NCBI GenBank assembly: GCA_024228115.1
Contig: JAAETT010000167.1
Span: 1-32,733, forward strand
Reading direction: 5' to 3'
DNA from: a bacterium
Lineage (GTDB): Bacteria; Myxococcota_A; UBA9160; UBA6930
Length of the DNA stretch: 32,733 bases
The first letter of the stretch is position 1. Every line of letters starts with the position of its first letter. The notes beneath the pieces are model-generated. The model was given only the letters and a program-made list of their open reading frames with translations, did not search any database and had not been told where the DNA came from. Shown piece after piece: positions 15,979 to 32,733 of the stretch. The position numbers and the translations under genes were made by a program.

Positions 15979-16227
15979 CTAGCCGCCCGCGATCGCGGGA
16001 AGAAAATGCAGCTCGCCGCCGGCCGGCACCGGCTCGAGCCAGGGATCCTGGATGAGCTCGCCATCGATGGCCACGGCGAAATCCTGCCCAAGCTGCTCGC
16101 GGAAACCGGGGAAGCGCTCGTCGAGGGCACCGACCACGGCGCGGACACTGCCCGCCGGCACATGGACGTGCAGTTCGCCCTCACAAAGCGCACGAAGGGA
16201 AGCCGGTATCTCCACGAGACAACTCAT
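15979..16227 (-). CDS. MoaD/ThiS-like sulfur-carrier protein
   Basis: An 82-residue ubiquitin-fold protein ending in Gly-Gly (HFLPAIAGG), the hallmark of MoaD/ThiS sulfur carriers, in which the terminal Gly is thiocarboxylated. The middle matches the fold (GSVRAVVGALDERFPGF, then DGELIQDPWLEPVPAGGELH). The family members provide sulfur for the molybdopterin dithiolene. The ATG at 16225-16227 overlaps the large-subunit stop by ATGA. It sits between the large and FAD subunits, a less common place, and may serve dedicated cofactor maturation of this hydroxylase. No matching MoaE or MoeB is present. Confidence 0.85.
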   Translation of the reverse strand: MSCLVEIPASLRALCEGELHVHVPAGSVRAVVGALDERFPGFREQLGQDFAVAIDGELIQDPWLEPVPAGGELHFLPAIAGG

Positions 16228-18493
16228 GAATTCCCGCCGCGGCCTTCTTGGAGCGCCGCCAGCAGGCGCGGCGGCGAGATCGGAAGGCTCGTCATGCGCA
16301 GCCCCACCGCCTGGCGAATCGCATTCGCGACGGCGGCCAGGGGCGCCACGATGGGCGTTTCTCCAACCCCGCGCACGCCGTAGGGGTGGTTCGGATTCGG
16401 CACCTCGACCAACACGGTCTCGATCATCGGAAGGTCGGAGGCCACCGGCACCCGGTAGTCGAGGAAACCCGGATTCTCGAGCACGCCCTGGGCATCGAAG
16501 ACGAACTCCTCGTTCAGCGCCCATCCAATACCCTGGGCCGCCCCACCCTGCATCTGACCTTCGACATAGCTCGGGTGGATGGCGCGGCCGGCGTCTTGAA
16601 CCGCGGTGTAGCGGAGCACGTCCACCCGCCCCGTCTCGGGATCGACTTCGACATCGCAGAGATGGGTGGCGAAGCTGGGCCCGGCGCCGCGGGCCGTGAG
16701 CTGGGCCTGCCCGTTGATCGGCCCTCCCGTCCTGCCCGCCTGGCGAGCCACCTGGGCCACCGTGAGAGGCTCGTCCGAGAGGCCCGAGCCCTCCGCCGGA
16801 ACGCAGCGGCCATCGACGAAATCCACCTGCTCCGGATCACATTCCCACATCTTCGCGGCCCGCTTTCGCAGCTCACGCACCACCTGACGACAGGCCTCGA
16901 TGACGGCCTGGCCGGTCGCGAAGGTGACACGGCTGCCGCCGGTCAGATCCGTGAAGCCCACGGAATCGGTATCCGCAACGACCGGGCGCACGTGGTAGAC
17001 ATCGATCCCCAGCTCTTCGGCGGCCATGATCGCCAGCGAAGCGCGCGAGCCGCCGATGTCCGGATTCCCGGTCGCGACCACTGCGGTGCCATCTTCGTTC
17101 AAGTGCACCTCGGCGCTCGAATTCAAACCGGCGTTGAACCAGAAACCGACCGAGACACCACGACCCTGGTTGGGGCCGAGCGGGGCCCGGTAGTGGGGGC
17201 AATCGCGTGCGGCTTCGAGCGTTTCGATCAGGCCGACCCGCTTGAACTTCGGCCCGTAGGGTGTCTTGGTCCCCTCTTTGGCCGCGCAACCCAGGCGCAA
17301 ATCGATCGGATCGATCTCGAGCTTCTCCGCCAACTCGTCGAGGGCTCTCTCGATGGCGAAGGCCGCCTGGGGAGCGCCGGGTGCCCGATAGGCCGCCGTG
17401 CGCGGCTTGTTGCATACGACGTCGAGGGATTCGATCGCGTAGTTGGGGATATCGTAGGGCGCGAGCACGGTCATCGCGGCCGCGCCGGCCGGGGAACCGG
17501 GGAAACCGCCGGCCTCGAAACACATGCGCACGCGCGCCGCCGTGAGCGTTCCGTCTCGGAGGGCACCCAGCTCGATCTCCGCATGCGTGGCGGCGCCGGG
17601 GCCGGTTGCGCGGAAGACCTCCTCCCGGTTCATCACCATCTTCACGGGCCGCCCCGCCTTGCGCGCGAGCAGGATTGCCAGGGGCTCCTGGTACACGGTC
17701 GTCTTGCCGCCGAAGCCTCCGCCGATTTCACTGGGGATGACCTTGAGCTGGGACACATCCAGGCCGAGCAGCGCAGCGCAGCGCAGTAGGCCCGCACCAT
17801 GAAGGCGCCCTGGGTGCAGCACCAGAGGACCGATTGCCCGTCCGCGCCGGTGTGGGCCAACGCCGCATGGGGCTCGATGTAGCCCTGGTGGACGGTCTGG
17901 GTGCGGTAGCTGCGTCGCACCACCACGTCCGCGTCGGCCAGGCCGGCGGCGACGTCGCCGCGATCGTATTCGGTGATGGCCGCGACGTTCGTCGGCCCCT
18001 GGTCCTCGCCACCGCGGGTCTTCAGGTCTTCGTGGAGGATCGCTGCGCCGGGCGCCATCGCGTCGTCCAGATCGAGCACGACCGGGAGCGGCTCGTACTC
18101 CACCTCGATAGCGCGGAGGGCCCGCTCGGCCAGGGCCTCGCTGGTGGCAGCGACCGCTGCGACCGCGTGGCCGTGGTAGAGCACCTTTTCCCGAGCCAGC
18201 ACGTTGCGAGAGAGATGCGCCAGATTCGTCGGGCCGGGGCCCGGCTCGACCTCGGGCAAATCCGCTGAGGTGGCGACGGCCTTCACCCCCTCCATCGCCA
18301 TGGCTGCGCGGGGTTCGATACGAACGATGCGCGCGTGAGCGTGGGGGCTCCGCAGGACCCGCCCCCACAGCATGCCAGGTAGCGAAAAATCCGCGCCGAA
18401 CTGGGCGCGGCCCGTCACCTTGTCCACACCGTCGTGCCGAATCGGCCGGGTGCCCACCCAGCGGAACTTGCGCTCGCCGTTCTCCTCGCCCAC
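16224..18493 (-). CDS. Molybdopterin-binding large subunit, xanthine dehydrogenase family, frameshifted
   Basis: The catalytic subunit (CoxL/XdhA-type). It begins MGEENGERKFRWVGTRPIRH from a GTG at 18491-18493 with GGAGG upstream. The N-terminal hammerhead domain reads VLRSPHAHARIVRIEP and later ITEYDRGDVAAGLADAD. The Mo-binding part has IPSEIGGGFGGKTTVYQEP and GGSRVTFATGQAVIEACRQ. The active-site glutamate motif RGVGETPIVAPLAAVANAI is near the end. The reading frame breaks at 17768-17786, where GCTGC (minus strand) is repeated three times. Removing one 5-bp unit restores a continuous product of about 754 residues, normal for the family. The two halves are therefore found in different frames. 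Minus-strand frame upstream of 18493 is shadow. Confidence 0.92.
17768..17786. repeat. 5-bp tandem repeat causing a frameshift in the large subunit
   Basis: GCAGC occurs three times in a row, followed by a partial GCAG copy. The continuous reading frame of the large subunit needs one unit fewer. A slipped-strand gain of one 5-bp unit explains the shift. Confidence 0.8.
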
Positions 18494-32249: not shown

Positions 32250-32589
32250 CTAGAGCGCGTCGCTGTACACATCCTCGTTGAAGCCAACCAGCACCGTCTT
32301 GCCCTTGCGGATCGTCGGTGCTCGCAAGTTGCCCGTGGGTCCGAGCATGGCATCCACACACGCCTTGGGCGCCTTGCCGCCGGGCTTGAAGGTGTCGACC
32401 TTCTTTCCCTTGGCAACGATCACCTGGCTGGCTCCCTTGGCAAGCTCGGCTGCATCCTTGCGGGAGAGCTTCCGGGAGGCCGGGGATGGTCTCGCGAACC
32501 TCGATGCCCTGTGCGTCCAGGAACTTGGACGCTCGCGTGCAGGAGGTTCAACCCTTTCGGTGGTAGTACCAGTCGATTCGCTTGGCCAT
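32250..32589 (-). CDS. ArsC-family selenoprotein (in-frame TGA as Sec, UxxC), frameshifted
   Basis: A thioredoxin-fold ArsC-like protein of about 112 residues. It begins MAKRIDWYYHRKG, then a TGA at 32548-32550, then TSCTRASKFLDAQG. The TGA sits where the first redox Cys of a CxxC motif belongs, giving U-T-S-C, and a SECIS-like hairpin follows. After GIEVRETIP the frame shifts: one G too many in GGGG (32482-32485, plus strand) must be removed to give IPASRKLSRKDAAELAKG and the diagnostic end LGPTGNLRAPTIRKGKTVLV-GFNE, ending at the TAG 32250-32252. The Sec reading is strongly supported by position; the frameshift is either an assembly error or decay. A standard gene caller will miss this gene. 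It converges with the rhodanese gene. Confidence 0.8.
32496..32549 (-). promoter_or_regulatory. SECIS-like hairpin after the selenocysteine TGA
   Basis: Starting inside the TGA, GAACCTC (32549-32543) pairs with GAGGTTC (32502-32496). On the same axis, GCGTCC (32532-32527) pairs with GGACGC (32518-32513) around the 8-nt loop AAGTTCCT. The loop begins 21 nt after the TGA, within the range reported for bacterial SECIS elements, which bind SelB. An internal loop separates the two stems. Computed by hand pairing only. Confidence 0.65.
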
Positions 32590-32733
32590 GCCCACTAGCC
32601 CGGACTATGCATGAAAATCAGTTGAGAAGCTGACTTTCGATGGTTCCAGGGTGCTGTGCGGCGATTGATCCTGACGGATGTCGCTTACGGTGGATGAGGC
32701 TCGGTCCTCGGCGCAAATTCGGGGCGTGCCTCG
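32590..32733. other. Right edge, no gene recognised
   Basis: The last 144 bases are upstream of the ArsC-like gene and should hold its promoter. No open frame of note, RNA or repeat was recognised before the window ends. Confidence 0.5.

Follow-up and report, generated by a model that had tools for sequence, protein, structure and literature searches.

A known ArsC-like selenoprotein gene, probably damaged recently, beside an IS-like repeat in a bacterial genome

The window (i.e., the whole stretch of 32,733 nucleotides that was analyzed) carries on its minus strand an ArsC-like selenoprotein gene that is read in two segments. The first segment (32482 to 32589, codons 1 to 36) was identified by translation in the ATG frame and by alignment to relatives, and encodes MAKRIDWYYHRKG-U-TSCTRASKFLDAQGIEVRETIP when its in-frame TGA is read as selenocysteine (Sec, U). 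Translation of the minus strand from the ATG at 32589-32587 gave MAKRIDWYYHRKG, the TGA at 32550-32548 and then TSC, just as an earlier reading made from the letters of the window (the sequence-only reading) had described it. The TGA (minus strand, 32548 to 32550) is codon 14 and occupies the place of the first cysteine of a CxxC redox motif, and every relative that could be read has a stop codon or TGA there. The TGC at 32539 to 32541 (minus strand) encodes the resolving cysteine C17, an invariant column in an alignment of 28 sequences. The four codons TGA-ACC-TCC-TGC are read as U14-T-S-C17, i.e., the UxxC redox motif of the NCBIfam family NF041106.

A Sec-decoding apparatus had been presumed for the organism, with a genome search named as the check. 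By this search, SelA (455 bits), SelB (285 bits), SelD (353 bits) and a tRNA-Sec with a TCA anticodon (71.3 bits) were all detected in the genome (97% complete), which is thus a Sec-decoding genome. The selD gene is itself a selenoprotein gene, with a TGA in the active-site motif CGUAAK (LARTCG-TGA-AAKIGP; locus L048 on contig G000:C360, reverse strand, at the start of the match).

A bacterial SECIS hairpin was located downstream of the TGA at 32513 to 32532 of the minus strand (GCGUCCA-AGUUCC-UGGACGC). Nucleotides 32532-32526 pair with 32519-32513 to form a 7-bp stem, and the 6-nt loop AGUUCC (32525-32520) has a G at its second position. The rules quoted for bacterial SECIS elements in a 2026 review (PMC13188914) are a stem of 4 to 16 bp, a loop of 3 to 9 nt with a G in the first two positions, a distance of 16 to 37 nt from the UGA and an energy of at most -7.5 kcal/mol; the hairpin, at 22 nt from the UGA and -10.9 kcal/mol, lies within all of these limits. 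The element was further delineated by pairing, consensus folding and codon conservation. Among 29 aligned sequences, 99.5% of the cells of the stem were paired, compared to 24 to 36% when the arms were slid, and compensatory changes on both sides were observed at one pair. Codons +5 to +8 (CGA GCG TCC AAG) varied much less than would be expected from codon usage, with TCC, for instance, in 40 of 40 sequences. The sequence-only reading had drawn a two-stem hairpin (32496 to 32549) with its apical loop 21 nt after the TGA. A hairpin does follow the TGA and its 7-bp upper stem is conserved; the spacing was measured at 22 nt, and the lower stem (32549-32543 with 32503-32497) can be formed by the window and the nearest relative, G003, and by none of the other relatives folded. 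A two-stem SECIS was rejected, as the consensus fold retained only the upper stem.

The family to which the gene was assigned is an established one, as the sequence-only reading had stated for ArsC-like selenoproteins. NF041106 ('ArsC family (seleno)protein', ArsC_rel_Se_1) was matched at 118 bits against a cut-off of 85 when both reading frames were joined; the single halves scored 67.7 and 31 bits, each below the cut-off. The window gene shares with this family the full-model profile match, the UxxC motif, a single TGA at codon 14, a SECIS directly downstream and the C-terminal LGPTGNLRAP, and departs from it in two respects, a shift of the frame by 1 nt after codon 36 and an IS-like element 9 nt before the start. 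The family is listed in the same review (PMC13188914) as 'Arsenate reductase-like protein', with UxxC. 'Arsenate reductase 2' (cd03032, UxxC) of the Global Ocean Sampling survey (PMC2398784) is of the UxxC ArsC/Spx type and, judged by its description, is probably the same group. The arsenate reductase selenoproteins of the TIGR00014 type (PMC1088965) share the ArsC superfamily and have Sec at the catalytic cysteine position, but their motif is UxxS whereas that of the window gene is UxxC. Scores to other models remained below threshold, namely 27.2 bits for Spx/MgsR (TIGR01617; curated cut-off 75) and 19.9 bits for Pfam ArsC (PF03960; gathering score 24).

The gene was present in the genomes of 42 of the 61 relatives, and each listed match had exactly one TGA, the C-terminal half of the window copy excepted. 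From a total of 475 matches, 80 loci from named genomes were retained; they were distributed over Deltaproteobacteria/Myxococcota, Gammaproteobacteria, Acidobacteria, Planctomycetota, Eisenbacteria and others. The motif LGPTGNLRA could be read exactly enough in 75 of these 80 loci, and a stop codon was found at the Sec position in all 75. When 284 genomes were sampled across the phylum, 47 were above the cut-off, and every match above it carried one TGA. The stop-free matches in this sample were all below the cut-off and mostly resembled ordinary ArsC/Spx proteins; in three, a 99-aa open frame begins immediately past the U position and, judged by this arrangement, these may be further Sec copies. 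Alignment with homologs, one of the checks proposed, placed Sec at this position across several phyla. Neither a cysteine ortholog nor a residue other than cysteine or Sec at the motif position was seen among the relatives read, and no viral homologs were found. One relative (G044) has the ArsC-like Sec gene in duplicate (L025 and L064). In another (L061, G058:C611) the C-terminus departs from the family immediately past LGPTGNLRA, and this copy may be frameshifted as well. No conserved operon was evident, as each gene neighbor was limited to a handful of the 80 loci at most; the most frequent real neighbors, a histidine phosphatase and a TetR-like regulator (both identified by eye), occurred at 8 of them.

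These results bear on the nature of the TGA. In the raw six-frame list of open reading frames no frame runs through it, as fits an ordinary stop or some other sense codon within an open reading frame that arose by chance or is a pseudogene remnant unrelated to Sec. Such a reading is set against a complete Sec machinery in the same genome, a conserved SECIS, a TGA in every readable relative of the family and the existence of a curated model for that family, and we regard it as extremely improbable. A chance TGA or ordinary stop was ruled out on the basis of the conservation in relatives, the SECIS and the machinery, and chance is excluded as the source of the TGA and the hairpin. The TGA that replaces the first cysteine of the motif is therefore, as first proposed, a real Sec codon, supported by machinery, hairpin and homologs that carry Sec.

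The continuity of the gene did not withstand the same scrutiny. The sequence-only reading had the downstream part keep the family end in one frame, over a span (32250 to 32589) that is 340 nt in length and no multiple of 3. After codon 36 the ATG frame continues into unrelated residues (...RETIP|GLPEALPQGCSRACQG...) and stops at 32166-32164. The family sequence ASRKLSRKDAAE...LGPTGNLRAPTIRKGKTVLVGFNEDVYSDAL was found instead in the next frame (32480-32253), followed by a TAG stop at 32252-32250, and the quoted end LGPTGNLRAP lies there, one frame away from the ATG. This second coding segment (32250 to 32480, minus strand) is an open frame with 97% identity over residues 34 to 112. The frameshift was mapped to a CCCCGG run (32480 to 32485, minus strand) that has one nucleotide more than in the relatives, as judged from side-by-side sequences and from relatives that are read in one frame, and BLAST against G003 placed just one inserted nucleotide in the window, at about 32480. 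No indel was observed at this point in the approximately 40 relatives read, including G003 with its 96% identical protein. Thus, the relatives are open in one frame apart from the TGA and the window copy is not, an extra base that breaks this copy having been overlooked. As the 1-nt frameshift splits the Sec half from the C-terminal half, the results do not support the view that the selenoprotein is encoded by this gene in its present form.

We compared both halves to G003 by codon. Codons 1 to 34 differed by 6 synonymous and no non-synonymous changes and the second segment by 13 synonymous and 3 non-synonymous changes, giving 19 synonymous versus 3 conservative non-synonymous differences in all. 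By these counts, both halves were under strong purifying selection until very recently, with no sign of long decay, which fits either a very recent lesion or an artefact. A protein search of the own genome returned the two halves of this copy only, and thus no second copy that could replace the damaged one.

Directly before the start codon lies a mobile-element-like repeat that had also been missed. Next to a CTAG target-like site (32595 to 32598) lies one end of a high-copy IS-like element (32599 to 32733), which is cut by the contig end and adjoins the gene 9 nt upstream of the ATG. The boundary of the repeat is sharp and is shared with 20 further contig ends of this genome, always at CTAG apart from one TTAG. 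At least 40 matches to the repeat were found in this genome, almost all of them at contig ends. The repeat exists in at least three sequence variants and breaks the assembly at dozens of places (L188 to L207). At the corresponding place G003 carries the CTAG but no repeat, and its alignment to the window stops at 32598. From this arrangement, the repeat resembles an IS that has used a CTAG as its insertion target. The other end of the repeat, a target duplication and a transposase were not recovered in the genome. An IS1380 transposase was considered as the source of the repeat and rejected, as the genome gave only fragmentary matches below the cut-off, none of which carried the repeat end. 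A Shine-Dalgarno-like motif precedes the start codon in 35 of 36 relatives and is absent in G003 and the window. Since G003 also is without a clear Shine-Dalgarno sequence, its loss is not attributable to the IS, and the weak leader probably predates the insertion.

Two side observations concern other regions of the window. A gene for the large subunit of a molybdenum hydroxylase (xanthine dehydrogenase-like; about 16227 to 18493, minus strand) is frameshifted by one extra copy of the 5-nt tandem unit TGCGC at 17771 to 17775, and the corresponding frame is open in a relative (G004). At the left contig end, tRNA genes for Thr, Gly, Tyr and Thr lie beside a GTPase fragment (EF-Tu/SelB-like) on the minus strand (193 to 785 and 26 to 103). 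The match of the stretch at 26 to 103 recurs in contig C166 at an identical position, as would be expected if a duplicated tuf gene broke the assembly.

The predicted protein was modeled by AlphaFold as a confident thioredoxin-type fold (pLDDT of 93.6), with UxxC at the start of helix 1. The closest solved folds were ArsC-related and Spx proteins (such as PDB 1z3e, 3ihq, 3gkx and 2m46), which have the same predicted fold with VIA Z scores of 8 to 9 and are 16 to 27% identical to the predicted protein over the structural alignments. In a profile alignment, the CxxC of Spx aligns with the UxxC of the family, with cysteine in place of Sec. In the intact relatives, SelB with Sec-tRNA-Sec would read the UGA of codon 14 as Sec with the aid of the downstream hairpin, and the product would be a small thioredoxin-fold oxidoreductase. 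Its selenol at U14 may attack a disulfide or similar substrate, with C17 acting to resolve the intermediate. The word 'arsenate' in the family name likely reflects resemblance in fold only, as the Pfam ArsC score is below the cut-off, and support for arsenate reduction goes no further than the fold. In the window copy, the extra nucleotide after codon 36 would lead normal decoding to a wrong-frame C-terminus, and the IS-like element would have severed whatever lay upstream when it landed next to the start.

Taken together, we interpret the locus as a copy of NF041106, a known selenoprotein gene, that was recently damaged in this lineage, with a probability of about 0.6. The frameshift itself is judged somewhat more readily explained as a real, recent inactivating mutation than as an assembly error. 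In favor of a real lesion, we counted the second frameshift within the same window, in the molybdenum hydroxylase gene, and the IS-like element that adjoins the 5' end of the gene. The principal competing explanation is that the living organism has an intact gene and makes a normal UxxC selenoprotein, the extra base being a sequencing or assembly error or the path of a minority strain. The indel is confined to this assembly and missing from the nearest relatives, all invariant residues are kept in both halves with mostly synonymous divergence, and the base lies in a C/G run near a contig end of a 700-contig assembly, all of which speak for an error of this type. Contig ends overlap by about 140 nt, which suggests a short-read k-mer assembly; single-base indel errors are rare in such assemblies, and the frameshift site, about 250 nt inside the contig, is beyond the overlap zone. 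SelA, SelB, SelD and several translation GTPases of the same genome, moreover, have open frames. We thus consider an intact gene a serious though less probable explanation.

A different way of keeping the gene functional would be a programmed or leaky +1 frameshift at CCC-G of codon 36, such that the mRNA is recoded twice, by Sec insertion and then by a slip, and the full protein is made. Known +1 slip sites include proline codons CCC that precede G or C. In the window copy, slippage by +1 past the CCC codon would yield the exact family sequence (ETIP|ASRKL), and purifying selection persists in both frames. Yet the extra base is found in no relative, leaving no conserved shift site or stimulator, and for one indel in one genome, mutation or error is the simpler explanation; double recoding is accordingly rated as very unlikely.

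The gene belongs to an ordinary and already known selenoprotein family, and its novelty is low. The family appears to keep Sec rather than swap it for cysteine, as all readable relatives use Sec. The locus also serves as a warning that matches bearing a TGA need to be checked for frameshifts. Double recoding, if true, would mean that a broken-looking gene still makes a full selenoprotein. If the damage is real, a copy with two fresh defects in a genome with full Sec machinery would represent a snapshot of selenoprotein loss.
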